This document shows, piece after piece, positions 4,355 to 41,027 of a DNA stretch of 41,260 bases (the first letter of the stretch is position 1; each line of letters begins with the position of its first letter). Source of the DNA: Polaromonas sp. (GTDB lineage Bacteria; Pseudomonadota; Gammaproteobacteria; Burkholderiales; Burkholderiaceae_C); assembly GCA_025363315.1 (NCBI GenBank), contig JANYED010000191.1, positions 1-41,260 of the forward strand, in the 5' to 3' direction. The position numbers and the translations under genes were made by a program. Under the pieces are notes generated by a model. That model saw only the letters and a list, made by a program, of their open reading frames with translations. It did no database searches and had not been told where the DNA came from.

Positions 4355-6882
4355 ACGACCAGATTGAACAAGCTCTCAACCTGGCAATCAACCTGGCAAT
4401 CAACCAGGCCTGCCAGCGTATTGCCCCTACCTGGCCACTGGACCAGTTCATTGCCGTTAATCCGTACTTGGGTTTTGTGGATCAACCGATTGCTGCCGCT
4501 GCCAAGCAACTAGGTCAGCTGTCGGGCACGCCGCTGGTCATGCCGCGCTCTTTTTATGGGGCCGAGTGGCAGGCCGGTCGCTTGACGCAAGCGCATTTGC
4601 AAGCAGCGATTGATGCAGCTGGTGCAGATTGCAACATCGACGAGTTGATCGACAGCATGACGCGCAACGCCCCAGCGGCCAAGCCACACGTGCTGATGAC
4701 TACATTGGCAGACAGCCAGCGCGACCTGACGCACGCCCTGGCGTGGGTTGACTTTGTCACGCACCAGATCAGCCAGCACTGCGCGGCCTACTTTGATGTG
4801 AGCCAAGCCGCCTGGAACCCAGAACGTGTGGGCCTTTATGCCAGCTGGGCCCGGCAATTGGCCAACGACCACAGCACCGCGCTGCTGATGGGCTACAAGG
4901 GCTTCAACCAAAAGGCAGCCAGCTTGCCGCATAACCCGCGAGCGCTGATCGCTGCCGCGACGCAGGCGCTCGGTTTGAAAGCTGAGCACTGCGCCGACTA
5001 CTACACCGCACTCTTGATGAGCATCAACGGCTGGGCCTCGTGGTGCGCTTACGAGCGTTGGCAAGCACGGCTGGGCACGGCGGCGGGCCGGGCAGATGAC
5101 GACAACATCATTGAGCTGCTGGCTGTTCGCCTGGGTTGGGAATGGCTGCTGCTGCAAGACCCAACTAACAAAGCAATTGCTATAAAATGGGGAGCTGCTT
5201 ACACCCGTGTTTATTCGGCTCCAGCCTTATTTGATACTCAAAACAAGCATGATTGGATGCTTCAGGACGCTTTGGAGCGAGCTTATCAGGAAGGCCTGGT
5301 CAAGGGCTTGACGAACGGGCCTTTGCCGCAGCTGTTCAAGCCGAACAACACGAAAGAGCTGCCAACGGTACAGGCTATTTTCTGCATTGATGTGCGCTCC
5401 GAAGTCTTTCGCCGCGCGCTAGAAGCCAGCAGCCCGACCATTCAAACACGCGGCTTTGCGGGCTTTTTTGGTTTGTTTATTTCTTACTCAACCACCGGCA
5501 CGGCCATGGTGCGGCCGCAACTGCCCGGTTTGCTGGCGGCAAGTCGCTGCACAACTGACGTGTGGGATGCTACGGATAAATGCGATTCTGTCTCGCTAGG
5601 CCAAGCTATTGCCCAGAGGCGCAAGCAAAACCTGACTTGGCGCAGCACCTGGCAAAACTTTCGCAGCACGGCCAGCAGCGGCTTTAGTTTTGTTGAAACC
5701 TGCGGCCTGCTGTACGCAGGCAAGCTCTTGAAAAACACGCTGCCCAGTTACGCCACGCCAAACACGGTGGAGAAAACGGGTTTGTCAGGCGATGAGGTCA
5801 AGGCAGCCCGGCCACGGCTGCAAAACCTGGCTGGCACAACACCAGAAGCTGAACTGCAATCACGTGCAGACATGGCTGCTGGCATTCTGGGGGCCATCGG
5901 CGTGACCAAAGACTTTGCCCGCATCGTTTTGCTGGCTGGCCACGGCAGCCAGACCGCCAACAACCCCCACGCCGCTGGGCTGGACTGTGGTGCGTGTGGT
6001 GGCCAAACGGGTGAAGTCAATGCCCGGGTGCTGGCGGCGCTGCTCAACGATGCGGCGGTGCGCATAATGCTGCTGGCCAAAGATATCAGCGTTCCTGACA
6101 CCACCTGGTTTGTAGGCGGCATGCACAATACCACCACTGACGAGTTGACTTTGTACGACACCGATTTGATGCCCGCCAGCCATCATGCCGACTTGCAGGA
6201 ACTTCGCATCGCGGCAGTCATGGCAGGCCAGCGCGCCAGAGCCGAACGCGCACCTGCGCTGGGTCTGGCGCATTTGGCACGCGATGCAGAGCAGCTGGAA
6301 AAAGCTCTCAAAGCCAGAGCCAACGACTGGGCTCAGGGGCGGCCCGAATGGGGCTTGGCCAACAACGCGGCCTTTATCGTCGCGCCGCGCACGCGCAGCC
6401 AGCACATGAACCTCGCAGGCCGCGCTTTTTTGCACGACTACGACCACAGCCAGGACCCCGGCCTTGGCGTGCTGACCCTCATCATGACCGCTCCCATGGT
6501 AGTGACGAACTGGATCAACATGCAGTACTACGCCAGCGTGGTTGACAACGTCAAATACGGCAGTGGCAACAAGGTGTTGCACAACGTGGTGGGTGGCAAG
6601 CTGGGCGTTTTTGAGGGCAATGGTGGCGACTTGCGGATTGGCCTGCCGATGCAGTCGCTGCACGACGGCAGACAATGGCAGCACACACCGCTGCGTTTGA
6701 GTGTGTTCATCGAAGCGCCCAAAACGGCGATTGACAGCATCATCGCAAGCCATTCCGTCGTCAGGCAGCTGGTAGATAACCAATGGCTGCATTTGTTTCA
6801 GATCGATGCACAGCCGGGTACACAGAAAAGCACAGTGTTTCGTTATGCACAAAATCGCTGGTTCAAAATGCCGTCGGACTAA
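4351..6882 (+). CDS. dabA: DabA, zinc-binding carbonic-anhydrase-like subunit of the DAB inorganic carbon transporter (DUF2309/UPF0753)
   Basis: 843 residues, normal for DUF2309. The zinc-site residues known for DabA are present: Cys345 and Asp347 in IFCIDVRSE, and His531 and Cys546 in the segment from GHGSQ to LDCGACGG; the His-to-Cys spacing of 15 matches the family. DabA is a peripheral cytoplasmic protein thought to hydrate CO2 to bicarbonate vectorially while coupled to DabB. The gene overlaps dabB by four bases and has its own RBS (AGGAG at 4339-4343). Oddities: a perfect tandem 12-base duplication at 4381-4404 gives a duplicated Leu-Ala-Ile-Asn near the N-terminus. A dispersed repeat (5179-5235) adds about 19 residues before the first zinc ligands. 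Confidence 0.95.
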   Translation: MNDQIEQALNLAINLAINQACQRIAPTWPLDQFIAVNPYLGFVDQPIAAAAKQLGQLSGTPLVMPRSFYGAEWQAGRLTQAHLQAAIDAAGADCNIDELIDSMTRNAPAAKPHVLMTTLADSQRDLTHALAWVDFVTHQISQHCAAYFDVSQAAWNPERVGLYASWARQLANDHSTALLMGYKGFNQKAASLPHNPRALIAAATQALGLKAEHCADYYTALLMSINGWASWCAYERWQARLGTAAGRADDDNIIELLAVRLGWEWLLLQDPTNKAIAIKWGAAYTRVYSAPALFDTQNKHDWMLQDALERAYQEGLVKGLTNGPLPQLFKPNNTKELPTVQAIFCIDVRSEVFRRALEASSPTIQTRGFAGFFGLFISYSTTGTAMVRPQLPGLLAASRCTTDVWDATDKCDSVSLGQAIAQRRKQNLTWRSTWQNFRSTASSGFSFVETCGLLYAGKLLKNTLPSYATPNTVEKTGLSGDEVKAARPRLQNLAGTTPEAELQSRADMAAGILGAIGVTKDFARIVLLAGHGSQTANNPHAAGLDCGACGGQTGEVNARVLAALLNDAAVRIMLLAKDISVPDTTWFVGGMHNTTTDELTLYDTDLMPASHHADLQELRIAAVMAGQRARAERAPALGLAHLARDAEQLEKALKARANDWAQGRPEWGLANNAAFIVAPRTRSQHMNLAGRAFLHDYDHSQDPGLGVLTLIMTAPMVVTNWINMQYYASVVDNVKYGSGNKVLHNVVGGKLGVFEGNGGDLRIGLPMQSLHDGRQWQHTPLRLSVFIEAPKTAIDSIIASHSVVRQLVDNQWLHLFQIDAQPGTQKSTVFRYAQNRWFKMPSD
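5179..5235 (+). repeat. Dispersed repeat family 1, copy inside dabA
   Basis: The core GGAGCTGCTTACACCCGTG resembles the family core AATAGCTGCTTGCGCCCGTA. It is in frame and encodes roughly residues 277-295 (AIKWGAAYTRVYSAPALFD). Confidence 0.6.
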
Positions 6883-6989
6883 ATTTGCCGGCAGCTTTGC
6901 ACCAGACTTTAAACATGAACGAACTTACGCGAGCCACTCCACCGCCATCAGCACGCCATTCAACGTCAACGGTCAGCGGTGCCGACCAG

Positions 6990-7028
6990 GCCTGTCTTGA
7001 CCAGTCGCGGCAGCAGTCAAGCTTAGGC
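6990..7028. terminator. Possible imperfect hairpin between the convergent dabA and TAXI genes
   Basis: CTTGAC at 6996-7001 pairs with GTCAAG at 7016-7021, with outer partly complementary CCTG/CAGG. There is no T-run, so intrinsic termination is uncertain. Confidence 0.25.
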
Positions 7029-8369: not shown

Positions 8370-8435
8370 GGGCAGCACCATAACACGCTCGCTGTCGTTT
8401 GCTTGACAAAAACGCGGCTTAGGTAACAAAAGAGC

Positions 8436-8483
8436 CCATAGCCCAATTGATACGGGCGCGAGCAGCTACTTAATATGTAGCAA
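8436..8483 (-). repeat. Dispersed repeat family 1, intergenic copy
   Basis: Contains TACGGGCGCGAGCAGCTACT and a small inverted repeat GCTAC/GTAGC at 8464-8481. It lies between the TAXI gene start and the end of the metal cluster. Confidence 0.75.
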
Positions 8484-8492
8484 TTACAGAAT

Positions 8493-8888
8493 TTATCGCA
8501 TAGTAAGCAGCGGCTGTACAAATGCAAACCAGCCCCCCACTGCAAACACCAACACACTGGCAACGTAGACGTGCTGAGACGTTTTGCGGCTGCGCAGGCA
8601 GACGTCCCGCAGCGACGGGTTGACAGGACATGGCGCAAAGCGGGCACGCCATTGCAACCACCCACTTAACGCCAGCATCACACCTGCAACCCCAAACACG
8701 GCTTCTTTGTATTCACTTACCCACACGAGGCCGGGCACAAAAGCCACCAGCGTTGACAGCGCTGCTCCCGCGCCCAGCGCCACAAGCAGTGCTGGCAGCG
8801 CGCAGCAAAGCAACGTGCCAGTACTGGTGAACAGGCTGACGAAAGTCAGCCACTTGCCAGATAACTGAACATCAGGTGATGCGGTCAT
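8493..8888 (-). CDS. Small MerT-like integral membrane protein
   Basis: 131 residues with about four hydrophobic helices. The first helix carries an adjacent cysteine pair in STGTLLCCALPALL, as in the MerT family of metal-ion importers. A later loop has FAPCPVNPSLRDVC, two further cysteines. The start overlaps the stop of the upstream HMA protein gene by four bases, so the two are translationally coupled. This mimics the merT-merP pairing of membrane transporter and periplasmic HMA carrier. It is the last gene of the copper cluster. Mercury resistance proper is not supported, as there is no merA or merR. Copper or another soft metal is the likelier substrate, by context only. Confidence 0.6.
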   Translation of the reverse strand: MTASPDVQLSGKWLTFVSLFTSTGTLLCCALPALLVALGAGAALSTLVAFVPGLVWVSEYKEAVFGVAGVMLALSGWLQWRARFAPCPVNPSLRDVCLRSRKTSQHVYVASVLVFAVGGWFAFVQPLLTMR

Positions 8889-9247
8889 TTTTTAGCTTTC
8901 ATCGCCGCTTTGATGTCGTCAACTGACTGAGCCGTATTCTCCAGTTTGACCACGTCGTAGCCTGCGTCCTTGATCTCTGCTGATATTTTTTTGCCATCCA
9001 GCGCCTGGCCTTCTTTGGCTTCAACCGCAACAATTTTTTTCTTCAAATCGACAAATACGGATTTAGTCTCAGGCATTTTCAACAGGCTTTTTTCAATGCC
9101 TTGCGCACAAAATGCACAAACCATGCCGTTGACGGTGGCTTTGACGCTTTCAGCGGCGACTGGCGTACTAAAAGTGCCTGTAACCCAGATAATGCCGGCG
9201 CTAAAAGCTACTGATTTCATAGCGGTTAAGTTAATTAAGGTTTTCAT
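8885..9247 (-). CDS. Periplasmic heavy-metal-associated (HMA) domain protein
   Basis: 120 residues. A signal peptide of about 33 residues ends in VAAES. A single HMA domain follows, with the metal motif GMVCAFC (Cys44, Cys47) and the fold's usual IEKSLLKMPE and VFVDLKKKIV segments. A lysine-rich tail ends the protein. The start is supported by GGAG seven to ten bases upstream on the minus strand. It is probably a MerP-like periplasmic Cu or Hg carrier that hands metal to the MerT-like protein encoded immediately downstream (4-base overlap). Confidence 0.85.
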   Translation of the reverse strand: MKTLINLTAMKSVAFSAGIIWVTGTFSTPVAAESVKATVNGMVCAFCAQGIEKSLLKMPETKSVFVDLKKKIVAVEAKEGQALDGKKISAEIKDAGYDVVKLENTAQSVDDIKAAMKAKK

Positions 9248-9262
9248 GATGCTTTCTCCAGA

Positions 9263-10221: not shown

Positions 10222-10270
10222 ATTCATCTCCTGATTAAGCATAGACCCCCTTGCGGTTGGCCATTTCAAA

Positions 10271-10294
10271 GCGTCTGCCGCCTGTAGCGGACGC
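10271..10294 (-). terminator. Hairpin after the second Cys-rich gene, before the CusF-like gene
   Basis: Read on the minus strand, GCGTCCGC pairs imperfectly with GCGGCAGACGC and is followed by TTTGAAAT. It could be a terminator or an intercistronic attenuator or stabiliser. Confidence 0.4.
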
Positions 10295-10310
10295 ACTTTG
10301 GGCTTGTGAG

Positions 10311-10667
10311 TCAGGAAATCGGTGGCTTTTGGCTGATAGCCTGAATGGCGCTGCTGAAACTGATGTTTAGCGCTGGTGGTGACGCATGCCGTACCGCCTC
10401 GTGTTCAGTCCCGATGGTGGACGCCAAATTTGCAACAGACAGGCATAACTCGCACGTGTCGCAGCCGCCGCACAAGGATGTCGTGTCATCGGCCAAGGCT
10501 TGTGTGTGCATTTCACAATCAGCAGGCATGGCCGTTTGATCGGTCATGTTGGCTTGCACTACGGCAACTTTCGCCATGTCTATCACCATGATGTTGCTGG
10601 CCCATCCGCGCAAAGGCAGCACGATCAGCATCAACACAATTAACAGACAACGTGAAAATTTAGGCAC
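10311..10667 (-). CDS. Small exported Cys-rich protein B (paralogue of the protein at 15488-15901)
   Basis: 118 residues. A hydrophobic N-terminus ends in LPLRGWAS, a likely signal peptide. The mature part holds CEMH and a cysteine cluster CGGCDTCELC. The last residues are SQKPPIS, the same ending as the paralogue upstream (GQKPPIS). The start is GTG at 10667 and is uncertain because no clear RBS is seen. It resembles the loosely defined CopL-type Cys-rich proteins of copper loci, but similarity is in layout, so the function is inferred: periplasmic Cu(I) binding or sensing. It is followed by a hairpin. Confidence 0.65.
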   Translation of the reverse strand: MPKFSRCLLIVLMLIVLPLRGWASNIMVIDMAKVAVVQANMTDQTAMPADCEMHTQALADDTTSLCGGCDTCELCLSVANLASTIGTEHEAVRHASPPALNISFSSAIQAISQKPPIS

Positions 10668-10716
10668 ATATTTATGACAAGAAGAAATTAAAAAAGTTCA
10701 GCTTTACAAGTCAGCA

Positions 10717-11073: not shown

Positions 11074-11108
11074 AATGTTTGTCTTTCAGTGAATAAGTAA
11101 CGATTTAA

Positions 11109-15464: not shown

Positions 15465-15483
15465 CAGGCCCAGTTTGGGCCTG
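15465..15483 (-). terminator. Hairpin directly after the first Cys-rich gene
   Basis: A perfect 8-base stem CAGGCCCA/TGGGCCTG with a 3-base loop, starting five bases past the stop codon. Read on the minus strand it is followed by a T-rich stretch. It probably ends or attenuates the CDF/HMA-MauE/Cys-rich transcript. Confidence 0.55.
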
Positions 15484-15487
15484 GAAG

Positions 15488-15901
15488 TCAGGAAATCGGT
15501 GGTTTTTGGCCCAGCGCTGTAGCTGCGCTGGTAAATGCTGCGGCGTGCGTTGGGCGCAGCTGGGGTGGCGTGAAAGATGTCATCACGTCAAGCGATGAAG
15601 GAAACAAAGCCACCGTGTGGCACGCCTGACAGGCTTGACAGGTACCGCAATTGTCGTTGTTAGCAGTTTCATCTGTCTGTGAATGCGTCGACGCCTGCTG
15701 GTGGCAATCAACCATGGCTTGAGGCGCCTCAAAATCCTCATTTTGATGCCCGAAAGAGTCTACGGCCCTTATTTCATGGGCGCGAGCAGCTCCTGCTTTT
15801 GTAGCAATGGCTGCATTCGCCATCTGCGTAGCCATTGCATCGCCAGCCCAGCCGCGCAAAGGCAGCAGGACGACCACGAGGACGAGAACAAAAAAGCGCA
15901 T
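15488..15901 (-). CDS. Small exported Cys-rich protein A
   Basis: 137 residues. A hydrophobic leader contains VLLPLRGWAGDAM. The mature part has VDCHQQ and the cysteine cluster CGTCQACQACHT, and ends GQKPPIS. Layout, leader motif (LPLRGWA) and ending are shared with the protein encoded at 10311-10667, so they are paralogues. The residues AIATKAGAARAHEIRAVDSF after the leader are encoded by a degenerate copy of the dispersed repeat. It is probably periplasmic and metal-binding. A CopL-like role in copper resistance is inference from the cluster. Confidence 0.7.
   Translation of the reverse strand: MRFFVLVLVVVLLPLRGWAGDAMATQMANAAIATKAGAARAHEIRAVDSFGHQNEDFEAPQAMVDCHQQASTHSQTDETANNDNCGTCQACQACHTVALFPSSLDVMTSFTPPQLRPTHAAAFTSAATALGQKPPIS
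15760..15812 (-). repeat. Dispersed repeat family 1, degenerate copy in Cys-rich gene A
   Basis: The core GGGCGCGAGCAGCT at 15778-15791 is intact and the flanks are degenerate. It is translated in frame. Confidence 0.5.
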
Positions 15902-15938: not shown

Positions 15939-16712
15939 TCAACGCGTCACCACCAGCATCACCGCAGCCATCAGCACCATGCCCACGTCTTCCACGATGG
16001 TGACGGTGCTCATCGGCAGCTTGAAAACCGTGCCCAGACAAGCGCATTGAATCTGCGTTTTACTGGCCACTGCACGAATGACCCCAATCGCTGAAAAGCC
16101 CATGACGAGGATAGTGACCCAGTGGGTTAGCGTCGGGCTGAAATGCGCCAAATAGGCGATACCCAAGCCTAACTCTACAAATGGATACACCAGAGCCCAA
16201 CCGCGCCAGCGCTTGGCCAGCACGTCGTAGCCCGCATACGCATCGGCAAATGCTTTGATGTCCAGCAGCTTGAAAAACGAAAAGACCAAAAAGAAACCCG
16301 CCATGAAATAGCGCATGGTGTCCATGGTTGTGATGCTGGCCAGCCCACCCATACCGATTTGCAACATCAGGCTGCCACCCAGGATGTAGGCAACGATCAA
16401 CAACAGCGGGCTGTAAATGGCCAGCCAGCTCTCTGGAGATTTTTCATCTGCTATGTTTAAAGGAGCTGCTTGCGCCCGTATTGATTGGGCTAGAGGCGTT
16501 TTCAACACCGGATTTCGAATCAATACATACTTGCCCGCGCCTGCAACAACATTTTTCAGTGTTTCAAAGTCTGCTGTCGCATCGGTCAGTACGACTTGCA
16601 TCGGGTTCAAGGTGACCGTCACGCCAGATGCCAGCGGCTCCAGGCTTTTGGTCACGCGGCCTACGCAGGCGTTGCAGTGCAAGCCTGTCAGGGCAAAGGT
16701 TTGGGCGGTCAT
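15939..16712 (-). CDS. HMA domain fused to a MauE/DoxX-like membrane protein
   Basis: 257 residues. Residues 1-65 are an HMA metal-binding domain with LHCNACVGRV (Cys13, Cys16). A linker of about 25 residues follows. The remainder has four hydrophobic helices of the MauE/DoxX redox-associated type, with a Cys pair in IQCACLGTVFKLP. Such proteins are thought to move electrons or metal across the inner membrane, perhaps reducing periplasmic thiols or copper carriers. The linker is encoded by a copy of the dispersed repeat (16450-16498). The gene follows the CDF gene by 15 bases and is probably cotranscribed with it. Confidence 0.85.
   Translation of the reverse strand: MTAQTFALTGLHCNACVGRVTKSLEPLASGVTVTLNPMQVVLTDATADFETLKNVVAGAGKYVLIRNPVLKTPLAQSIRAQAAPLNIADEKSPESWLAIYSPLLLIVAYILGGSLMLQIGMGGLASITTMDTMRYFMAGFFLVFSFFKLLDIKAFADAYAGYDVLAKRWRGWALVYPFVELGLGIAYLAHFSPTLTHWVTILVMGFSAIGVIRAVASKTQIQCACLGTVFKLPMSTVTIVEDVGMVLMAAVMLVVTR
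16450..16498 (+). repeat. Dispersed repeat family 1, copy in the HMA-MauE linker
   Basis: A near-consensus copy with GCTTGCGCCCGTATTGATTG. It encodes the interdomain linker PLAQSIRAQAAPLNI on the minus strand. Confidence 0.85.
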
Positions 16713-20866: not shown

Positions 20867-21661
20867 CTAGTCTTGCAGTGACGATAAAAACTGCTTTAGC
20901 TCTGGCGTTTTCGGGTCGCTGAAAAGCGCTTTCGGTGGCCCCACTTCATGCACGCGACCCTGGTGCATAAAGATCACCCGATCGGACACCTTGCGCGCAA
21001 AGCTCATCTCGTGCGTCACCATCAGCAGCGTCATGCATTCCGCTGCCAAGCTTTCTACCACGCGCAGCACTTCGCCCACCAGTTCAGGGTCTAACGCACT
21101 GGTGATCTCGTCACACAGCAATACGGCAGGCTCCATCGCCAGTGCGCGTGCGATGGCGACGCGCTGCTGCTGGCCGCCAGACAGCTGGTCGGGCATGGCG
21201 TCGAATTTTTCAGCCAGGCCTACCCGATCCAGCAGTTTTTTGGCCAGCGCTGTGGTCGCAGTGATATCGGTTTTTTTCACCAGCGACGGCGCCAGCATGA
21301 TGTTTTTACCCACACTCAAGTGAGGAAACAAATTAAAGCTTTGAAAAATCATGCCCACTGTCTGACGCAGCGCGCGCATGGCCTGCGCGTTGCCCGGCAG
21401 CAGGGGCTTGCTGTCCACTGTCAGTGCGCCGTGCTGAAACGCCTCGAGCCCGTTAATGCAGCGCAGCAGCGTGCTTTTGCCCGAACCGCTTTTGCCGATG
21501 ATGGCAATCACTTCACCACGCGCAACCTGCAGGTCAATGCCTTTGAGCACTTCATTACTGCCAAAGGATTTGCGCAATCCGGTGATGCTGATGATCGCCT
21601 CTGGTCCTCCGTCCGCTACTGAATCAGTAGCTGCTCGTACCCGATTATGCTGATCTGGCAT
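20867..21661 (-). CDS. Polar amino-acid ABC transporter, ATP-binding protein
   Basis: 264 residues. Walker A is GKSGSGKST, the signature [15 protein letters not shown], Walker [15 protein letters not shown], and the switch [13 protein letters not shown]. This is the GlnQ/HisP type. The first 18 residues ([18 protein letters not shown]) precede the normal ATPase start ([12 protein letters not shown]) and come from a copy of the dispersed repeat. The start also overlaps the upstream permease gene by 17 bases. It powers uptake by the two permeases encoded next. Confidence 0.93.
21615..21655 (+). repeat. Dispersed repeat family 1, copy at the ATPase start
   Basis: GCTACTGAATCAGTAGC (17-base inverted repeat) followed by TGCTCGTACCCGATTATGCT. 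It covers the N-terminal extension of the ATPase. Confidence 0.75.
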
Positions 21662-22298
21662 TGATTTTTCTTTCTAATGTCTTGGCATACAGGCTGATGG
21701 GAAAGCACAGCGCAAAGTACAGCAGCGCCACACAGCTGTAAACAATAAAAGGCTTGAACGTAGCGTTGGTGATCATGGTGCCAGCTTTGGTCAGCTCGAC
21801 AAAGCCAATCACTGACGCCAGTGACGTGCCTTTGACCACTTGCACCAAAAACCCCACGGTTGGCGGGATGGCGATTTTTAAAGCTTGCGGCAGCACGATA
21901 TATTGCAACTGCTCCCAAAAGCTCATGGCCAGTGACTGGCTGGCCTCCCACTGGCCTTTGGGAATGCTTGCGACACAACCGCGCCAGATTTCAGTCAAAA
22001 AAGCGCTGGTGTACAGCGTCAGCGCAAACGCTGCAGCGACCCAGGCGGACGTTTTGATGCCAAACAGGGCAATGCCAAAGTATGTCAAAAACAGCTGCAT
22101 CAACAGTGGCGTGCCTTGGAAGACCTGCACGTAAGCGCCGACGAACACATCGGTGCCCGGCGCTTTTGACAAGCGCGCCATAAGCAGCACCAGGCCCACA
22201 ATGCCGCCGCCGATAAAGGCCACCAGCGACAGCGCAACCGTCCAGCGCGCGGCCTCCAGCAGGTTACGAAAAATGTCCCACAGCGTGAAGTCAACCAT
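21645..22298 (-). CDS. Polar amino-acid ABC transporter permease (HisM-type), second subunit
   Basis: About 217 residues from ATG 22298, four bases after the stop of the first permease gene; a TTG at 22331 would extend it. Several membrane helices are present. The EAA-type loop reads WRGCVASIPKGQWEASQSLAM and the periplasmic-binding contact includes VFQGTPLLMQLFLTYFG. It forms the membrane channel with the neighbouring permease. The substrate is a polar or acidic amino acid by family only. Confidence 0.9.
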   Translation of the reverse strand: MVDFTLWDIFRNLLEAARWTVALSLVAFIGGGIVGLVLLMARLSKAPGTDVFVGAYVQVFQGTPLLMQLFLTYFGIALFGIKTSAWVAAAFALTLYTSAFLTEIWRGCVASIPKGQWEASQSLAMSFWEQLQYIVLPQALKIAIPPTVGFLVQVVKGTSLASVIGFVELTKAGTMITNATFKPFIVYSCVALLYFALCFPISLYAKTLERKINARSA

Positions 22299-22302
22299 TT
22301 GG

Positions 22303-22965
22303 TTAGCGCCCGAAAATAAAACGCGGACCAAGCCAATTTAAAAACTGTCTCACCCCTATGGCCAGCGCCAGATAAACCAGCGTCGCAACGATGTACGCCT
22401 CAAACGCGCGAAAGTTACGGCTTTGAATCAGGTTCGCGGCGTAGCTCAGCTCTTCGGTCGATATTTGCCCACACACGGCTGAACCCAGCATGACGATGAT
22501 GATCTGGCTGACCAGCGATGGCCACACCTTGCGCAGCGCGGGCGGCAGCACCACGCGTACAAACGTCTGCATGCGGTTCATCGCCAAACTCATCGCGGCC
22601 TCAATTTGGCCCTTGGGCGTGGCGTCAATGCCGGCGCGAATAATTTCAGTGGCATACGCAGACAGGTTGATCACCATCGCCATGATGGACGCCACTTCTG
22701 GCGACAGCTTGACACCCAGCGCCGGCAAGCCGAAGTACACAAAAAACAGCTGAACAATAAACGGTGTGTTGCGGATCAGTTCAACATATGTGCCGACCAC
22801 CCATTTGGCCCACGCAGGCCCGTGCGAACGCGTCCAGGCAAACAGCACGCCCAGCGCCACGCCAATGACGCTGGCAACAACCGTCAGCCCAACCGTCCAC
22901 GCCACGCCCTTGGCCAGCAGCGGCCACTGGGCAAGTACGGCGAGAAAGTCAAACTCAATGCGCAT
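22303..22965 (-). CDS. Polar amino-acid ABC transporter permease (HisM-type), first subunit
   Basis: 220 residues. The membrane helices and family blocks match the HisM/GltK type: YVELIRNTPFIVQLFFVYFG and IRAGIDATPKGQIEAAMSLA. It is paralogous to the next permease, so the transporter is a heterodimer of two permeases. The downstream permease starts four bases after this stop. Its own start lies 123 bases after the substrate-binding protein gene. Confidence 0.92.
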   Translation of the reverse strand: MRIEFDFLAVLAQWPLLAKGVAWTVGLTVVASVIGVALGVLFAWTRSHGPAWAKWVVGTYVELIRNTPFIVQLFFVYFGLPALGVKLSPEVASIMAMVINLSAYATEIIRAGIDATPKGQIEAAMSLAMNRMQTFVRVVLPPALRKVWPSLVSQIIIVMLGSAVCGQISTEELSYAANLIQSRNFRAFEAYIVATLVYLALAIGVRQFLNWLGPRFIFGR

Positions 22966-24076: not shown

Positions 24077-27000
24077 TCAGGCGCTCAAAAGCGCCGCATT
24101 TCCCCCTGCCGCTGTGGTGTTCACCGTCACCGTTTGTTCTGCGCAAAACCGGTACAAATAATGCGGCCCACCGGCTTTGGGGCCGGTGCCGCTCAGGCCC
24201 TCGCCGCCAAACGGTTGCATGCCCACCACCGCGCCTGTCATGGCGCGGTTGATGTACACATTGCCAATGTGCGCGCTGGCAGCAAGCGCCTGGGCGCGCG
24301 AGTCGATGCGGGTTTGAATGCCAAGCGTCAGGCCATAGCCCAGCGCGTTGATTTGCGCGATGACGGCTTCCGGCTCGCCAGACCAGCGCACGATTTGCAG
24401 CACCGGGCCAAAAATTTCATCCGTCACAGCGGCAATGCTGCGGACTTCAAAGGCGGTGGGCAGGATGCAGTTTGCTATAGTTAAAATAGCTGCTCGCACA
24501 CGTTTTGATTGGTCTAACAGCAATTTAGCCTCTGAATTAAGGCGTTTGACTTGTATCTCAATCACCTCAAACGCATCGGCATCAATCAGGGGACCCACAT
24601 CAGTTTGCAGGTCTGCTGCGTCGCCAGTAGAAAGCTCAAGCGCCGCGCCTTGCACCATGGCTATCAACCGGTCAGCAATGCTTTCGTGCACACACAACAG
24701 CCGCAGCGCTGAGCAGCGCTGGCCGGCGCTTTTAAAGGCGCTGTGCATCACCGCGTCCACCACTTGCTCGGGCAGTGCGCTGCTGTCAACCAGCATGGCG
24801 TTGATACCGCCGGTTTCGGCAATTAGCGGCGTGATGGGCCCGTCTTTGGCGGCCAGTGCGCGGTTGATGATTTTGGCTACCTCGGTGGAGCCGGTAAACA
24901 CCACGCCCGCCAGGCCCGATTGCGCCACCAGCGCCGCACCCACTGTGCCCCCAGGTCCGTGCGCCAGTTGCAGCACGCCGCTGGGCACGCCTGCATCTGT
25001 CAAGATTTGAACGGCAGCCTGCGCCACGCCGGGTGTTTGTTCGGCGGGCTTGGCAATCACGGCGTTGCCTGTAGCCAGCGCAGCCGCCACCTGACCCACA
25101 AAAATCGCCAGTGGGAAGTTCCACGGGCTGATGCACAGCCACACGCCGCGTGCCTTGAGCTGCAGCACATTGGTTTCACCGGTAATGCCAAAGGCGGTGC
25201 CGTCATGCGCCTGCGGCAAATGGATCGGCGCCATGATGCGTTCTGCCTCGCCAGCGTAGTAGCGCAAAAAATCAATCGCTTCGCGCACTTCGGCAATTGC
25301 GTCGCCCCATGTTTTAAAGGCTTCTTTGACCAGCAGGGCGCACAGTGCGGGAAGCTCACGCTGCATCACGTCAGCGGATTTGCGCAAAATGGCGGCACGT
25401 TCGGCGACTGGCGTATTGCTCCATGTTTGATAGCTGCTCGCGCCCGTAGTTATTGCGCTAGAGGCCGATTGGATGTCAAAAATAGCAACTTCGGGCACCT
25501 GGGCTGCGGCATAGGCTGCTTGCAGCGGCTGCAGCATCGCTGCAACTGCCAAGTCCACGCCCGCACTGTTTTGGCGGCTGGGGCCGAACAAGTCGGCAGG
25601 CAGCGGCAGGGAAGGTTGCGGATGCAACACCAGCGGCGACGTCAGCAGTGCATCCATGCCGACCGACTCATCGGCCAGCTGGTGCACAAAGGACGAGTTG
25701 GCACCGTTTTCAAGCAGGCGGCGCACCAGGTAGGCGAGCAAGTCTTTGTGTGAGCCGACGGGTGCGTAAATGCGGCAGGTGGCGTGCGGGTTCTTCAACA
25801 CTTCGCGGAAGACCCCTTCGCCCATGCCGTGCAGGCGTTGCAGTTCGTAGGGGCTCCTGCTCAGCTTGGCTATGTCAATGATTGCCGCAATCGTGCCCGC
25901 GTTGTGTCCGGCAAACTGCGGATAAATGGCGTCGGGCGCACTAAGTAACGTTTTGGCGCAGGCGAGATAGGCAATGTCGGTGTGGTTTTTATGCGTAAAG
26001 ACCGGGTAGTGCGGCAGGCCAAGTTCTTGGGTGCGTTTGATCTTGGCGTCCCAGTACGCGCCCTTGACCAGGCGGCACATCAGGCGCAGATTGTATTTGC
26101 GCGCCAGCACAACAACGTGCTGCACCAGGTCAAGCGCGCGGGTCTGGTAGGCCTGCAGCGCCAGGCCAAAGCCGCGCCATTCGGGGTGGTTTAGGGCAAC
26201 CAGCGCGGCCAACGCTTCAAACACATCAAGCGACAGCTCCAGCCGGTCGACTTCTTCGGCGTCAATCGTCAGGTTGATGTTGGCGCGTGCAGCCAGCTGG
26301 CACAGGCCCCACACGCGCGGCACCAGCTCGGCCATCACTCTAGCGTGCTGGGTGTGTTCAAACCGTGGGTGCAACGCGCTGAGTTTGATAGAAATACCAT
26401 CATTTAGCTCGCAAGCCCAATTGATTCGTGCGCGAGCAGCTATTGAATGTATAGCGTTTGTGTAGCTGGCTAGGTACGCTTGCGCGTCAAGCTCGGTGCG
26501 TGCGCCTTCGCCCAGCATGTCATAGGAAAAGCGAATACCGCTTTGTTTTTTCTTCGCGCTCTGGGCCTCGTCCATGGCGTCATGGATCGTCTGGCCAAGA
26601 ACGAATTGTTTGCCCAGCAACTGCACGGCTCGCAAGGTCGCTGCTACCACGGCACGTGCGCCCAGCTTGCTCAGCGCGCCGCCAGTGCCATCGGCTGCCG
26701 GCAAAAACTTCTTGGACAAACCAATGGCGCTGGACGACAGCCGCGCCATCGCTTTGGCCGATTTTTCATCACCGCCCGCAAAGTCTGCGCGGCCCAGCTG
26801 GTCGGCGGTCAGAGCAATGGCGGTGTCGACGTCTGGCACGCGCAGCAGCGCTTCAGCCAGGCGCATCAACGCCAGGCCTTCGGCGCTTGAAATGGGGTAT
26901 TCCTTAAGCAAGCTTTCCATCGCCCAGAACGGCGGCGGATTGGCGCGCACCGACTCGACCCAAGGCTTGGCCGCTACTGTCGCCGCAGCCCAGTCCAGCG

Positions 27001-29846: not shown

Positions 29847-30767
29847 ATGACATTTGCCCAGCTGACTCAACCTGTCCCTGCCCCCCTGACCGCCGCGCTG
29901 AGCGGTGAGCGGATCGACCTGCAAACACCGTCCGGAGCCGTGTGTTTTTACACGGCGCAACAAGCTTATTCAAATTCTCAGCCTCCGATCCTGCTGGTCC
30001 ATAGTGTGAACGCCGCCGCATCAGCCGCAGAAGTCGCCCCGCTGTATGACCACTACCGCCAGATGCGTCCCACCTATGCGATGGAATTGCCGGGTTACGG
30101 CTTTTCAGATCGCTCTGACCGGCCGTACACCATCCGGCTGATGACCGACGCGGTGCTGGCCGTGCTGGCGCACATCCGCAAGCTGCATGGTGATGCAGCG
30201 GTAGATGTGGTGGGTGTGTCCCTGTCATGTGAATATGTGGCCAGAGCGGCTTGCGAAGTGCCGGGCGCGGTGCGGCGGATAGCCATGGTCAGCCCAACGG
30301 GCTTTCGCGGCAGCAAAAAGTTTTATGGCGCGCCCGGCTCGTCACGCGGCATGGCGGGCTTTTACCGCGCTGTCAGCAATCCGCTGTGGAGTAGCGGTTT
30401 GTTCAACACCCTGACCCGGCCTGGCGTGGTGCGCTACTTTTTGCAGCGCACCTTTGGCCGCAAGCAGGTTGACGAAAACTTGTGGCGCTACTGCGTTTTG
30501 ACAGCGCGGCAGCCCGGAGCCAAGCATGCGCCTTTGTATTTTTTGTCTGCCTACCTCTTTGCTGCCGACATCAATACCCTGTATGAAAAGCTAGCCTGCC
30601 CGGTGTGGGTGTCGATGCCCACACGCGGCGACTTTACCAACTACAAGGGCCGCGGCGTGGTGGAGGGCCGAGCCAACTGGCAGTTTCATGTTGTCGATGG
30701 CGGTGCGTTGCCTTATTTTGAAGACTTGGCAGCTTTTACAGATAGATTAGACGGTTTTTGGAAGTAA
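29847..30767 (+). CDS. Alpha/beta-fold hydrolase
   Basis: 306 residues. The hydrolase fold shows ILLVHSVNAAASAAE (oxyanion region), ELPGYGFSDRSDRPYT, and the nucleophile elbow GVSLSCE with Ser125; the usual second Gly of GxSxG is Ser. The catalytic His is probably in the last 60 residues but cannot be fixed, as the canonical GH before the C-terminus is replaced by DGGALPYFED. It could be an esterase or a catalytically altered member. It faces the BciB-like gene across a short repeat-bearing gap. The substrate is unknown. Confidence 0.75.
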   Translation: MTFAQLTQPVPAPLTAALSGERIDLQTPSGAVCFYTAQQAYSNSQPPILLVHSVNAAASAAEVAPLYDHYRQMRPTYAMELPGYGFSDRSDRPYTIRLMTDAVLAVLAHIRKLHGDAAVDVVGVSLSCEYVARAACEVPGAVRRIAMVSPTGFRGSKKFYGAPGSSRGMAGFYRAVSNPLWSSGLFNTLTRPGVVRYFLQRTFGRKQVDENLWRYCVLTARQPGAKHAPLYFLSAYLFAADINTLYEKLACPVWVSMPTRGDFTNYKGRGVVEGRANWQFHVVDGGALPYFEDLAAFTDRLDGFWK

Positions 30768-30772
30768 AAGTG

Positions 30773-30820
30773 CCTGTAGCCCAATCGATACGTGCGCGAG
30801 CAGCTCCTTAAACAATAGCG
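30773..30820 (-). repeat. Dispersed repeat family 1, intergenic copy
   Basis: TAGCCCAATCGATACGTGCG followed by CGAGCAGCTCCTTAAACAAT. It sits between two convergent genes. Confidence 0.8.
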
Positions 30821-30823
30821 TTC

Positions 30824-35732: not shown

Positions 35733-35754
35733 TGTTTGTGACGGGTGTATAAAT

Positions 35755-35802
35755 GGCTGCAGACCAATAGAATCGGGCGCTGGCAGCTATTAAATAGCTA
35801 GC
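35755..35802 (-). repeat. Dispersed repeat family 1, intergenic copy
   Basis: GCAGACCAATAGAATCGGGC then GCTGGCAGCTATTAAATAGC. The stem GCTATTAAATAGC is intact. It lies 22 bases past the metallophosphoesterase stop. Confidence 0.8.
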
Positions 35803-35917
35803 AAATCAGCACTTGAACAGACGGGCAAAAGAACGACTGGCGCATACCGTTCGGGCGGCCAACAAGCTTTTTCGCCCTACCAGCGCCTGGCAAGCGCGTT
35901 GCTGGCCAACCGCATGC

Positions 35918-36313: not shown

Positions 36314-36408
36314 GGTGTCCTTTTTTCCGTTTACAGCTTCAGTCAGGGCCGTGCAAGCCGGTGCGGGTCTGTTTGGCCATTCTGGCGCAGTTTGCCACGC
36401 GCATTGGT

Positions 36409-37065
36409 CTAGCCCGCAGCCTCAAGCCCACTGTCGATATGCGCTCGCATCGCCGCCTGCGCTGCAAATGCATTCCTGCTTTTCAACGCGGCCATGACGG
36501 CTGCATGCTCGGCCAGTGACTCTTCAATCCGCCCGGCCTTGAGTAGCGACTGTGCCCGGTTGAGCTTCATCACCTTGCGCAGGTCAGCCACTATTTGGCC
36601 TGCCCACTTGTTGTTGGCAACTGCCAGCAGTTTGACGTGAAATGCCTCGTTCAGCTTGAAGAATCGAAGGTGATCTTTTCGGTCTTTGGCCGCTTTTTCC
36701 AACTGCTGATGAAGCGCGTCCAGCTCTTGCAGTTGTTGGTCTGTCGCGGTTTGCGCAACCGTGCCCGCAGCGTCGGCTTCCAGCACGGCCATCAAATGAA
36801 ACACATCGCGCAGGTCTTTTTCATTGACTTCGGTCACATACGCGCCGCGCCGCACCTTCATGGTCACCAGCCCTTCAGTGGCCAATACCTTGAGCGCTTC
36901 ACGCAGCGGCGTGCGGCTGATGCCATATTCAGCGGCGATTTTCAACTCGTCTATCCATGCGCCCGCTACCAGTTGATGGTTAAATATTTTGTCGCGCAAC
37001 AGCTCGGCAACGTCTTCATACAACGCGCGCTGCTTGAGGTTTTGCGGAGATAACGGGGCGTTCAT
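36409..37065 (-). CDS. GntR-family (FadR/FCD) regulator, probable regulator of the methylmalonyl-CoA operon
   Basis: About 218 residues from ATG 37065 (MNAPLSPQNLKQ). A winged helix-turn-helix spans about residues 14-80 (IAAEYGISRTPLREALKVLA). The all-helical FCD effector domain has LEADAAGTVAQ, FHVKLLAVANNKW and the closing EHAAVMAALKSRN with His ligands. It is divergent from scpA across a 74-base spacer, so it probably represses the operon. The effector might be propionate- or succinate-pathway CoA or acid, by inference. Confidence 0.9.
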   Translation of the reverse strand: MNAPLSPQNLKQRALYEDVAELLRDKIFNHQLVAGAWIDELKIAAEYGISRTPLREALKVLATEGLVTMKVRRGAYVTEVNEKDLRDVFHLMAVLEADAAGTVAQTATDQQLQELDALHQQLEKAAKDRKDHLRFFKLNEAFHVKLLAVANNKWAGQIVADLRKVMKLNRAQSLLKAGRIEESLAEHAAVMAALKSRNAFAAQAAMRAHIDSGLEAAG

Positions 37066-37139
37066 ACGGCTCGAAGTGTACACGAAACTTAATTCTGAAT
37101 TTATAATTACAAATGCTGGAGTTTGGTAAGATGTGGTGT
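37066..37139. promoter_or_regulatory. gntR-scpA divergent control region
   Basis: It contains the palindrome GTGTACAC at 37076-37083 and AT-rich TTTATAATTACAAAT further on. GGAG at 37118-37121 precedes an ATG at 37131 by nine bases, so that ATG is a possible alternative scpA start. GntR/FCD operators are often short palindromes of this type. Confidence 0.45.
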
Positions 37140-39299
37140 ATGACCACGCCATTCAAACCTTCAAGCCTTTCAGATTGGGAAACCGCCGCAGCCAAATCCG
37201 CCCCCGGCGGTGATGTAGCCGCCCTGAACTGGCATACGCCAGACGGCATCACAATCAAGCCGCTGTACACGGCAGATGATGTCAAGGACTTGCCGCATAC
37301 CAACACACTGCCAGGTTTTGAACCCTTCATACGCGGCCCGCAGGCCACCATGTATGCGGTGCGGCCGTGGACGATCCGGCAGTACGCCGGGTTTTCAACC
37401 GCCGAAGAATCTAACGCGTTTTACCGCAAGGCGTTGGCTGCGGGTGGGCAGGGCGTATCAGTTGCGTTCGACCTGGCCACGCACCGCGGTTACGACAGTG
37501 ACCACCCGCGTGTGACGGGTGACGTGGGCAAGGCCGGCGTGGCGATTGATTCAGTTGAAGACATGAAGATTCTCTTCAACCAGATTCCGCTGGACAAGGT
37601 CAGTGTGTCGATGACGATGAACGGCGCGGTGCTTCCGGTGCTGGCTGGTTATGTGGTGGCGGCTGAAGAGCAGGGCGTTGCGCAGGCGGATTTGAGCGGC
37701 ACGATTCAGAACGACATCCTCAAAGAATTCATGGTGCGCAACACCTACATCTACCCGCCCGAACCCAGCATTCGCATCATTGGCGACATTATTGAATACA
37801 CGGCCAAGCACATGCCGAAGTTCAATTCAATTTCCATCAGCGGCTACCACATGCAGGAAGCCGGGGCTAACCAGGCGCTCGAACTGGCCTTCACGCTGGC
37901 CGACGGCAAAGAGTATGTGAAAACAGCCATTGGCAAGGGGCTGGATGTGGACGGGTTTGCAGGCCGCCTGAGTTTTTTCTGGGCGATCGGCATGAACTTC
38001 TATTTAGAAATTGCAAAAATGCGCGCGGCACGGTTGCTGTGGTGCCGCATCATGAAGGGCTTTGATGCCAAGTCACCCAAGAGCCTAATGCTGCGTACCC
38101 ACTGCCAGACCAGTGGCTGGAGCCTGACCGAGCAAGACCCCTACAACAACATTGTGCGCACCACCATCGAGGGCATGGCGGCCGTGTTTGGCGGTACGCA
38201 ATCGCTGCACACCAATTCATTTGACGAAGCGATTGCGCTGCCGACAGAGTTCAGCTCGCGCATCGCGCGCAACACGCAACTCATCATTCAGGAAGAAACA
38301 CACATCAGCGCGGTGGTGGACCCTTGGGCGGGCAGCTACATGATGGAAAAGCTGACGCAAGATATGGCCGACGCCGCATGGAAGATCATTGAAGAAGTCG
38401 AGGCCATGGGCGGCATGACCAAGGCGGTGGACAGCGGCTGGGCCAAGTTGAAAATCGAAGCCGCAGCCGCTGAAAAGCAGGCGCGCATTGACAGTGGCAA
38501 AGACGTGATTGTGGGCGTGAACAAATACAAGTTGAAGACAGAAGATGCGATAGAAACGCGCGACATTGACAACGTGGCGGTGCGTGACGGACAGATTGCT
38601 CGGCTCAAAGAAATTAAGTTAAAACGCGATGCAGCCGAGGTAATACGGGTGCTAGCAGCTATCAAAAACGCAGCAGAAACCAATACGGGGAATCTGCTGA
38701 ACTTCTCTATTCAAGCTGTGCGGGCGCGCGCCACGGTCGGTGAAATCAGCGACGCGCTGGAGGCTGTGTATGGCCGACACCGCGCCGATACGCAAAAGGT
38801 GACTGGCGTGTACGCTGCAGCTTATGACAGTGCCGAAGGCTGGGAACAGCTCAAAAAAGAAATCGCCGAGTTCGGCGAAACCGAAGGCCGCCGCCCCCGC
38901 GTGATGATCTCAAAACTGGGCCAGGACGGCCACGACCGGGGTGCCAAAGTGGTGGCTACCGCATTTGCAGATTTGGGTTTTGATGTCGACATGGGGCCGC
39001 TGTTCCAGACGCCGGAAGAATGTGCCCGCCAGGCGATTGAAAACGACGTGCATGCCGTGGGTGTGAGTACGCTGGCAGCAGGCCACAAGACACTGGTGCC
39101 CGCCATCATTGCCGAGCTAAAAAAGCAGGGCGCAGACGACATCATTGTTTTTGTCGGTGGCGTGATTCCCCGGCCCGACTACGAGATGCTGTACGAGGCT
39201 GGCGTCAAAGGCATCTACGGGCCAGGCACGCCAATTGTGGCCAGTGCAAAAGATGTGCTGGAGGAGATTCGCAAGGCGTTGGCTGGCTTGCAAAAATAG
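37140..39299 (+). CDS. scpA: Methylmalonyl-CoA mutase, single-chain ScpA/MutB type
   Basis: About 719 residues from ATG 37140 ([13 protein letters not shown]), matching the family length; ATG 37131 is possible. The substrate-binding barrel shows [36 protein letters not shown] and [12 protein letters not shown]. The C-terminal B12 domain has [11 protein letters not shown] with the cobalt-ligand His598 and later [11 protein letters not shown]. It interconverts (R)-methylmalonyl-CoA and succinyl-CoA using adenosylcobalamin. Part of the interdomain linker (about residue 503-510) matches the dispersed repeat core. It leads an operon with meaB and pccB, broken by a vapBC module. Confidence 0.96.
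38643..38669 (-). repeat. Dispersed repeat family 1, short fragment in scpA
   Basis: ATACGGGTGCTAGCAGCTAT then CAAAAA resembles the repeat core. It encodes [10 protein letters not shown], in the same frame as the other copies of that orientation. The length is native-like, so this may be convergence. Confidence 0.4.
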
Positions 39300-39302
39300 A
39301 TT

Positions 39303-39326
39303 TTGGTATGTATCATTGGTATGTAT
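39303..39326. promoter_or_regulatory. Direct repeats ahead of vapB, candidate toxin-antitoxin operator
   Basis: TTGGTATGTAT occurs twice, at 39303-39313 and 39316-39326, 13 bases apart. It lies between the scpA stop and the vapB RBS (GGAG 39336-39339). AT-rich TATTAA follows. Confidence 0.45.
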
Positions 39327-39345
39327 TAATAGTTTGGAGTCCCTT

Positions 39346-39606
39346 ATGAGCACAGCCGTTTTAAGCACAGCCAAAGTTTTCACCACGGGGCGTAGTCAAG
39401 CTGTACGTTTGCCCAAGGCGTTTCGCTTTGACACCACCGAGGTCACGATTGAGCGGAAAGGCGACGCCGTGATCTTGCGCCCCAAGGTCCAGACCAAAGA
39501 CGAATGGTGGGATGAGATGGATCAGATTCTGGCGGGCTTTGAGGGCATGCCCGAAGAAATTGAGCGTGATCGTACGGGTTTGAGCGATCCGGTGAGCTTT
39601 GATTGA
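39346..39606 (+). CDS. vapB: VapB/VagC-type antitoxin (AbrB/SpoVT fold)
   Basis: 86 residues. GGAG lies six bases before the ATG. The N-terminal AbrB-like swapped-hairpin DNA-binding domain has KVFTTGRSQAVRLPKAFRFD and VTIERKGDAVILRPK. The C-terminus (WWDEMDQILAGFEGMPEEIE) is the acidic toxin-binding tail. It should neutralise the PIN toxin encoded next and autoregulate the pair at the upstream direct repeats. The stop overlaps a possible TTG toxin start. Confidence 0.93.
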   Translation: MSTAVLSTAKVFTTGRSQAVRLPKAFRFDTTEVTIERKGDAVILRPKVQTKDEWWDEMDQILAGFEGMPEEIERDRTGLSDPVSFD

Positions 39607-39614
39607 TCTCGCAG

Positions 39615-40010
39615 ATGTACCTGCTTGACACCAACATCTGTGCCTATTTTTTGTCGCGCAAGTACCCCGCCGTCACTGCAAAGTTTCGCGAGCATGAGCC
39701 AAAGGAATTAGCGATTTCGTCCATTGTTGCTGGTGAGTTGGCTTACGGTGTGGAAAACAGCATGCGTATTGAATCGAATCGGCAAAACCTCGAATTATTT
39801 TTCGCAAAGATGAACATCGTTGCTTGGGACGAGACGGCTTTGTGGCAATTCGGATTCCATAAAGCCAAACTAAAAAGGGCAGGTACAAAAATTGGTGAGC
39901 TTGACTTGTTGATTGGCTGCCAGGCGCTGGCGATGAATGCAGTACTGGTCACCAACAACACGCGTGAGTTTGAACGGATTGAAGGTTTAAAGCTGGAGAA
40001 CTGGGTTTGA
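39615..40010 (+). CDS. vapC: VapC PIN-domain ribonuclease toxin
   Basis: 131 residues from ATG 39615 (MYLLDTNICAYFL). A TTG at 39603 has a GGTGAG six bases upstream and would add four residues. PIN active-site acids are Asp5 (LLDTN), Glu41 (VAGELAYG) and Asp97 (GELDLLIG). The C-terminal VTNNTREFERIEGL has Asn where some PIN proteins have a fourth Asp, as in enteric VapC. VapC cleaves RNA, typically initiator tRNA in enteric VapC, and inhibits growth when VapB is lost. Its stop overlaps the meaB start by four bases (TTGA), tying the toxin to the metabolic operon. Confidence 0.93.
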   Translation: MYLLDTNICAYFLSRKYPAVTAKFREHEPKELAISSIVAGELAYGVENSMRIESNRQNLELFFAKMNIVAWDETALWQFGFHKAKLKRAGTKIGELDLLIGCQALAMNAVLVTNNTREFERIEGLKLENWV

Positions 40011-41020
40011 TAATCACGCTGGTTGATAGCGTGGTCCACAATTCTGAGCCTCAAGCTCAGCGCCGCGCTATCGCTAAAGCCATCACACTACTCGAATCTA
40101 CGCGCACCGACCATCGCGCACAGGCAGACGAGTTGCTCACTGCCTTGCTGCCTCACACTGGCAAGTCCTTTCGCCTCGGCATCAGCGGCGTACCAGGTGT
40201 GGGCAAATCCACTTTTATTGAAGCACTGGGGTTGCACTTAATCAAGCATGGCCATCGTGTCGCGGTGCTGACGATCGACCCATCGTCAACTGTTTCAGGC
40301 GGATCAATTTTGGGCGACAAAACGCGGATGGACTTGTTGTCTGTCAACCCAAACGCTTACATTCGCCCCAGCCCGTCCAGCGGCACACTGGGCGGTGTGG
40401 CTGAAAAAACGCGCGAGGCCGTGCTGGTGTGTGAAGCTGCTGGCTACGACGTGGTGATGGTCGAAACCGTGGGTGTGGGCCAATCGGAAACCGCTGTGGC
40501 CAACATGACCGACATGTTTGTACTGATGCAGTTGCCCAACGCGGGCGACGACTTGCAGGCGATCAAAAAAGGCGTGATGGAGCTGGCCGATCTGGTTGTC
40601 ATCAACAAAGCCGACATCGATGCGATTGCCGCCCAGCGCGCGCAATTGCAAATCACATCGGCCATGCAGTTGCTGGGCATGTTCAGCGGCTATGTTGAGG
40701 CCAACTGGCACCCGAAAGCGATTCAACTCAGCGCCTTGAAGGGTGAGGGCGTTGAAGCATTCTGGGCAGAGGTGCAGGACTTCAAGGCACGGCAAATCGC
40801 CAACGGCAAGCTGTCCGCACGCCGCCAGCAGCAGTCACTGAGCTGGATGTGGGAGCGCATCGATGCGGGGCTGAAACTGGCCTTCAAGGAAAGCCCGGCG
40901 GTTAGCCGATTGCTGCCCGAAATGCTGGTCCAAGTCGCCAGCGGGCAGCTTCCAGCCTCAACAGCAGCACGAAATCTTCTTGCCGCCCGGTCAAATCGGG
41001 CGCAAGCAGCTACTGATTAA
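40007..41020 (+). CDS. meaB: MeaB/ArgK-type G3E GTPase, methylmalonyl-CoA mutase chaperone
   Basis: 337 residues. The start is TTG at 40007, supported by GGAG eight bases upstream and by coupling to vapC. The P-loop is GVPGVGKST (residues 61-69). Further blocks are LTIDPSSTVSGGSILGDKTR and VMVETVGVGQSE, with the base specificity motif NKAD. MeaB gates cofactor loading and protects the B12 mutase from inactivation. The last codons (RSNRAQAATD) and the stop are supplied by a dispersed repeat copy, so the C-terminus is probably rewritten. Confidence 0.95.
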   Translation: MIITLVDSVVHNSEPQAQRRAIAKAITLLESTRTDHRAQADELLTALLPHTGKSFRLGISGVPGVGKSTFIEALGLHLIKHGHRVAVLTIDPSSTVSGGSILGDKTRMDLLSVNPNAYIRPSPSSGTLGGVAEKTREAVLVCEAAGYDVVMVETVGVGQSETAVANMTDMFVLMQLPNAGDDLQAIKKGVMELADLVVINKADIDAIAAQRAQLQITSAMQLLGMFSGYVEANWHPKAIQLSALKGEGVEAFWAEVQDFKARQIANGKLSARRQQQSLSWMWERIDAGLKLAFKESPAVSRLLPEMLVQVASGQLPASTAARNLLAARSNRAQAATD

Positions 41021-41027
41021 ATAGCAG
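40993..41027 (-). repeat. Dispersed repeat family 1, copy at the meaB stop codon
   Basis: AAATCGGGCGCAAGCAGCTA then CTGATTAAATAGCAG. The stop codon TAA (41018-41020) is inside the repeat's loop. Confidence 0.8.

Follow-up and report, generated by a model that had tools for sequence, protein, structure and literature searches.

A long repeat with species dialects in Polaromonas and its relatives appears to evolve mainly in place and may be a DNA-uptake-type signal

A 41,260-nucleotide stretch of DNA from Polaromonas sp. (positions 1 to 41,260 of contig JANYED010000191.1, assembly GCA_025363315.1), here called the window, carries the genes dabA, putA, scpA and meaB, an HMA-MauE gene, adjoining ABC transporter genes, and several small open reading frames (ORFs). 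Pfam matches agree with the identities first given to DabA, PutA and MeaB. Scattered through these genes and the gaps between them are copies of a single sequence motif. The original prediction, made from the letters of the window, described about 12 copies of a dispersed repeat; the number found with a sequence profile is 13. Its 20-base core, searched with up to 3 mismatches, matches the window 6 times, whereas shuffled sequences hold a mean of 0.01 matches and at most 1.

The window belongs to a genome of 3.57 Mb in 386 contigs. A profile trained on the 13 window copies and then iterated was applied to a sample of 718,448 bases, consisting of the window and 40 other stretches of the same genome, and copies were counted at E<1e-3. 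It finds 146 copies. The best match in a first-order Markov shuffle has an E-value of 0.71, and the best in the reversed sequence 0.042. Both controls are thus empty at the threshold used, the repeat is real, and chance resemblance can be rejected. Extrapolation to the whole genome gives roughly 700 copies, a density that is perhaps biased upward because the stretches were drawn from contigs already known to contain matches. Searched exactly across the whole genome, the 13-mer TAGCTGCTYGCGC gives 203 matches, against one for its backward control.

Copies of the motif share a core of about 55 bp, conserved from about -15 to +39 when the A of AGCTGCT is numbered 0. The profile consensus of the copies is TTGCTATTAATTTAGTAGCTGCTCGCGCCCGTATTTATTGGGCTACAGGCCTATTT, and the motif of this species can be written GCTAY-N8-[GA][TG]AGCTGCTYGCGCCCGTATTnATTGGGCTAnAGGCnnATTT. 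Nearly invariant positions are the GCT at -14 to -12, the AGC at 0 to +2, and the C at +9 and +11. Other positions hold stable mixtures of two bases (G/A at -2, T/G at -1 and C/G at +32), such that positions -2 to +1 read GTAG, ATAG or GGAG by their majority bases. The core is followed on its downstream side by a tail, missed by the original prediction, in which A/T-rich tracts recur every ~10.4 bp to about +91. In 64 intergenic copies these tracts peak near +38, +48, +58, +68, +80 and +90, with A/T fractions of 0.95-0.97, 0.89, 0.75, 0.75, 0.64 and 0.59. Spectral power at ~10.4 bp exceeds all 1000 nulls, whether the copies are taken together, restricted to those between genes or restricted to the 42 inside genes. 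On the upstream side, A/T content is flat and without period. A phased tail of this kind is the pattern of DNA that would be curved or wrapped in one direction.

Gains of motif copies within genes appear to be largely, though not exclusively, changes made in place. Comparison with relatives covered 21 of the 42 intragenic copies, namely those with usable relatives, which are not a random half, and no insertion is present at 14 of the 21. At the ScpA site, 78 of 80 loci are gap-free, and the remaining two have extra length of their own; the same site holds partial motif DNA in close relatives. The sites in ClpB, CoaBC, an alcohol dehydrogenase/maleylacetate reductase and the second site of PutA are gap-free when aligned with homologues from PDB, the first PutA site differs by one residue, and the DabA site shows no gap relative to 4 relatives. 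IleRS is shorter than its homologues at the motif site. For a DUF455 protein, orthologues were matched in 36 genomes, and all 30 loci compared have equal length and no gap at the site. The motif is detectable there (E<=0.01) in 15 loci, which all belong to a clade of 23; the sister clade, with 7 loci, has none. Genome G342 is the nearest relative judged by Tex and DUF455; compared with it, 8 of 11 sites inside genes are gap-free, and this comparison adds five genes to the set without insertions.

At the remaining 7 of the 21 copies, some of which are among the strongest matches, length does differ, and length-changing gains therefore occur too. The Tex site lies in a linker of very variable length, and HrpA has a longer linker at its site. 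TilS is longer by about 12 residues and Ada/AlkA by 13. The third PutA site has 7 extra residues relative to a distant PutA and is equal in length to 3 of 4 congeners. Relative to G342, the copy at L058:5287 differs by 15 nt and that at L060:729 by about 96 nt, and a boundary or spacer copy (L045:18162) lies within about 82 bp that are missing from G342. The original prediction called the repeat 'mobile or gene-converting'. Mobility does not fit most of the copies compared, and gene conversion, or uptake plus recombination, is a possible copying step.

Each genome that was examined closely has a different dialect of the motif. Outside +4 to +14, most core positions have near-equal base frequencies in the dialect of the source genome (149 copies, E<0.01) and in that of G342 (73 copies). 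Within this block, the switch is sharp at +10, +12 and +13; for example, +12 is C in 90% of copies here and A in 82% of those in G342. The nearest sampled relative has another dialect at the same sites: in six gap-free orthologous pairs, +10 is G in all six copies here and another base in five of the six in G342. Such a small-block switch at pre-existing sites would be expected from a change in a protein that reads the motif and would not be expected from transposition. In G237, a member of another genus, the dialect is GCGCAnATnnnnCGGGCGC and only the first two A/T tracts of the tail are prominent. Several other genomes have GCGCTT..AAGCGC. Direct reading of four dialects reveals complementary arms in each (GCCC/GGGC, GCCCA/TGGGC, GCGC/GCGC and GCGCTT/AAGCGC), and therefore a twofold-symmetric or hairpin contact may join in recognition.

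The motif is patchy across one family. The 13-mer is present in 134 of 299 genomes drawn from the family, 38 of which have at least 20 copies, with a maximum of 419. Counts vary sharply within genera (97, 0 and 0 in one; 6, 147 and 3 in another). A draw of 200 genomes from the order included 195 of other families; a single match to a 14-mer was found in 13 of these 195, and none has more. In 80 named ScpA loci (606 kb), a motif match at E<=0.01 is found in 7 loci. The 3' end of meaB is occupied as in the window in five loci, from Polaromonas, Curvibacter (2), Acidovorax and Diaphorobacter.

Gene calls from a home-made hexamer caller place 42 of the 146 copies in genes, 18 at a gene boundary and 86 between genes. 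The sample is 86% coding, and the earlier statement that the repeat sits mostly inside genes does not extend to the genome. The 104 intergenic and boundary copies comprise 27 in convergent gaps (42 such gaps of at least 56 bp exist in the sample), 46 in tandem gaps, 8 in divergent gaps and 23 that are unclassed at stretch edges. Convergent gaps are favored, divergent gaps are avoided, and copies tend to lie close to the 3' ends of genes, just past stop codons. Copies in tandem gaps are divided almost evenly between the two orientations (24 and 22).

Copies inside genes use preferred reading frames, as had been proposed from the window. One frame is shared by 12 of 16 same-strand copies and another by 23 of 26 opposite-strand copies. 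A random draw for each copy from the frames that it has free of stops would put 30.3 of the 42 in the two preferred frames together, compared to 35 observed (p=0.024). The bias is stronger for the opposite-strand frame (..Q-x-x-R-A-x-A-A..), with 23 copies where 13.1 are expected (p=0.00015). Thus, stop codons account for much of the frame preference, but not for all of it. That copies are tolerated within proteins is likewise supported genome-wide.

Within the window, the same caller places 7 copies in genes, 3 across gene ends and 3 between genes (Table 1), compared to nine assigned to coding sequences in the original prediction. The copy at 15791 is held by an ORF (15488-15901) that the hexamer caller leaves uncalled. 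The copy at 21629, assigned to an ABC ATPase, falls at the boundary of ATPase and permease when the caller's later ATPase start is used. The scpA gene had been described as a fragment. It is a single frame that encodes both a complete mutase domain and a B12-binding one; its relatives align over residues 15-723 at up to 92%, and the best named ones are three metagenome-assembled genomes labelled Polaromonas (92, 90 and 89%). By direct reading, the copy at the end of meaB encodes R-A-Q-A-A-T-D-stop. The protein of gene 15939-16712 has a MauE domain and a weak N-terminal HMA match, with the motif copy between them. Small ORFs 10311-10667 and 15488-15901 contain stretches that are 74 and 71% identical (window positions 10294-10624 and 15471-15870) and look like paralogues; a Pfam search of the two gives no match.

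Table 1. Motif copies in the window (core, -16 to +39)
Positions	Strand	Location	Remarks
5177..5232	+	dabA	same-strand frame
8428..8483	-	intergenic by hexamer caller	
9170..9225	-	120-aa HMA-domain ORF 8885-9247	absent from the original prediction
15752..15807	-	small ORF 15488-15901	uncalled by hexamer caller; no Pfam match
16448..16503	+	HMA-MauE gene 15939-16712	opposite frame; between both Pfam matches
21613..21668	+	ABC gene boundary	permease 3' end (21645-22331) and start of ORF 20867-21661
24472..24527	+	putA	third site along protein; opposite frame
25416..25471	+	putA	second site; less used opposite frame
26402..26457	-	putA	first site; same-strand frame
30766..30821	-	between convergent genes	
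35749..35804	-	between convergent genes	
38621..38676	-	scpA	in place; no insertion relative to 80/80 loci
40972..41027	-	meaB 3' end	covers last codons and stop

These properties make it probable that the repeat is a recognition motif for a protein and that it evolves mainly in place. What drives this evolution is less certain, and we tentatively favor DNA uptake, with the motif serving as a DNA-uptake-type signal, by analogy to the DNA uptake sequences (DUS) of Neisseriaceae and the uptake signal sequences (USS) of Pasteurellaceae. A single ~55-bp recognition motif with a one-sided, helix-phased A/T tail, patchy across one family, would stand at a balance between mutation and drive. Fragments carrying the motif would be taken up and recombined preferentially, so that better matches spread by molecular drive, largely through changes to resident sequence. 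Copies would accumulate in permissive spots, such as positions past stop codons, convergent gaps and the least costly frames inside genes. When the receptor changed, they would be dragged to a new dialect. With less assurance, the motif might represent a third, independent lineage of uptake specificity, in Comamonadaceae; its signal of about 100 bp, partly palindromic in the core and curved in the tail, would reshape proteins in place.

The density of the motif (146 copies in 718 kb) is in the range of hundreds to thousands of copies per genome that is typical of DUS and USS. Its dialects, permissive sites, frame limits inside genes and in-place gains, which need no insertion machine, are also like those of uptake signals, the seven length differences notwithstanding. 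In the accessible text of the papers on DUS (PMC2397512, PMC3630211), these sequences likewise have many copies, species dialects, permissive places and frames limited by stop codons, the last of these described by Frye et al. Many new DUS in Neisseria face unrelated sequence or gaps in relatives, according to the available part of PMC2397512. DUS differ in having 10-12 bp with a CTG core. USS, as far as PMC7811141 and PMC2346458 describe them in the parts available, have a core followed by one-sided A/T tracts and include intragenic copies with an orientation bias. The AT-tracts beside the core of the Haemophilus influenzae USS are comparable to the phased tail of the motif. Here the helix-phased tracts are more numerous (about six peaks, fading), and the USS core is only 9-10 bp.

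Several observations weigh against an uptake signal, in addition to the length differences within genes. The conserved core has about five times the length of DUS or USS, which have short cores of 9-12 bp, and because of this the motif is not filed with them, an uptake role being argued by analogy. The complementary arms fit a hairpin or a twofold site equally. A ComEC-family protein is present in the source genome, but this says little because control genomes match as well (10 of 14, among them E. coli). Strict orientation along the replicon was considered and rejected; a milder bias exists in G237, a single-contig genome, where splitting contig C1 at its midpoint gives 44+/29- versus 8+/19- (p=0.007, for 100 of 147 places listed). 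No such bias between chromosome halves is known for DUS. Orientation in the source genome has no link to GC skew (p=0.14). Finally, a Y1_Tnp match is found in 18 of 18 motif-rich and 7 of 11 motif-poor genomes (p=0.014), in a hand-picked comparison that excludes G324, G331 and G336, which have no motif count.

A chromosomal protein that wraps DNA, such as a gyrase-like, nucleoid-architectural or segregation factor, is a rather unlikely alternative. Copies would be selected as its sites and kept for organizing or relaxing DNA, for instance at the meeting points of supercoils beyond the ends of genes. Over its roughly five helical turns, the phased A/T tail points to wrapped or curved DNA, and the concentration of copies near gene 3' ends and in convergent gaps is as this explanation predicts. 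In-place evolution and dialects would also follow, from site selection and protein change. However, selection would have to maintain hundreds of single sites, some of which alter residues of housekeeping proteins, and the motif is patchy among species of one genus.

We regard as quite unlikely a repetitive extragenic palindromic (REP) sequence copied by a REP-associated tyrosine transposase (RAYT) of the Y1 type, or some other small mobile repeat. Such an element would insert mostly into intergenic DNA and occasionally in frame, and its degenerate copies would drift. REPs are GTAG-tagged imperfect palindromes with hundreds of mostly intergenic copies and dialects. The motif resembles them in its mostly intergenic placement, and the [GA][TG]AG that precedes its partly palindromic core and the complementary arms of four dialects may correspond to their tag and palindrome. 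An element of this kind would also be expected to lengthen some sites, as seen at 7 of the 21 intragenic copies compared and in one spacer, and the two Y1_Tnp genes in the source genome and the association of Y1_Tnp with motif-rich genomes would fit it as well. REPs are extragenic and spread by insertion, whereas 42 of the 146 copies here are intragenic and two-thirds of those compared with relatives lack an insertion. Orthologous sites hold different dialects, and the phased tail extends 60 bp past the palindrome. RAYT-like Y1_Tnp genes of the same kind are also present in motif-poor and motif-free genomes. Only 4 pairs of neighboring copies lie within 400 bp of each other (3 inverted, 1 direct), and REPIN-like doublets are therefore rare. 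Both Y1_Tnp genes of the source genome have motif copies upstream (L152:1112-1322 and L151:1400-1451), one of these being an inverted pair. Of 20 Y1_Tnp loci found in 32 other genomes, few have the core close to the gene when 1 mismatch is allowed.

Transcription terminators or other fixed-sequence RNA hairpins would account for the copies that follow directly on stop codons or lie in convergent gaps, but they are very improbable given the even orientations in tandem gaps, the 42 copies inside genes, single-strand folds (DNA parameters) that clearly beat shuffles in only one of five cases (z -2.6), the lack of covariation of possible stems within the genome and the lack of an Rfam match in the window, and an RNA hairpin was rejected on the last three grounds.

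Parts of the motif have probably been seen before. A 2017 study (PMC5217627) lists, in its accessible text, ATAGCT(N)22CAAAAG in Polaromonas naphthalenivorans (125 copies) and GCTTAT(N)5AAGCG in Acidovorax ebreus (114 copies) as unexplained 'potential novel motifs' that lie near gene ends, many between convergent genes. By register, both pairs appear to fit parts of the present motif. That text does not join the pairs and proposes no dialects, tail, in-place origin or function. In the open-access literature, no paper was found that unites the two pairs or suggests a role in uptake, and searches for the 13-letter core string and for DNA uptake sequence together with Comamonadaceae found nothing. 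New here are the recognition of one motif across the family, its phased tail, its dialects and its in-place evolution.

Two other repeat families invite comparison. Rickettsia palindromic elements are also read in frame within genes; they are in-frame insertions as the available part of PMC3733652 describes them, whereas most of the copies compared here are not insertions and seven differ in length. That part of the paper does not name Acidovorax, Delftia, Polaromonas or Rhodoferax. BRE repeats of Bordetella and other Betaproteobacteria (PMC3110155) occur in Comamonadaceae, with some copies in coding sequences. They differ by their description in the accessible text, being up to ~90 bp long, 69% GC in Bordetella and tandem, with 4 copies in P. 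naphthalenivorans.

The motif also occurs on plasmids. A BLAST search with a composite motif matched 1760 plasmid records, mostly Enterobacteriaceae by name, and 18 of the 25 matches listed carry a DUF1010 annotation at the match. In plasmid NZ_MZ513635.1 (L339:1493-1537), the copy lies in a DUF1010 ORF that dfrA12 and aadA2 flank in a class 1 integron. The DUF1010 Pfam match begins at residue 31, and residues 35-47 correspond to the motif read antisense. The DUF1010 cassette may be of comamonad origin, and the DUF1010 family may be partly encoded by the repeat.

Should the motif prove to be an uptake signal, the range of sequence-specific natural transformation would grow by a large family of environmental importance, and the dialects would form barriers. 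As a chromosomal wrapping site, the motif would instead be an architectural one that is dense and has dialects. Long repeats within genes are normally read as insertions. Under either explanation, a long motif in hundreds of copies appears to rewrite segments of proteins in place.

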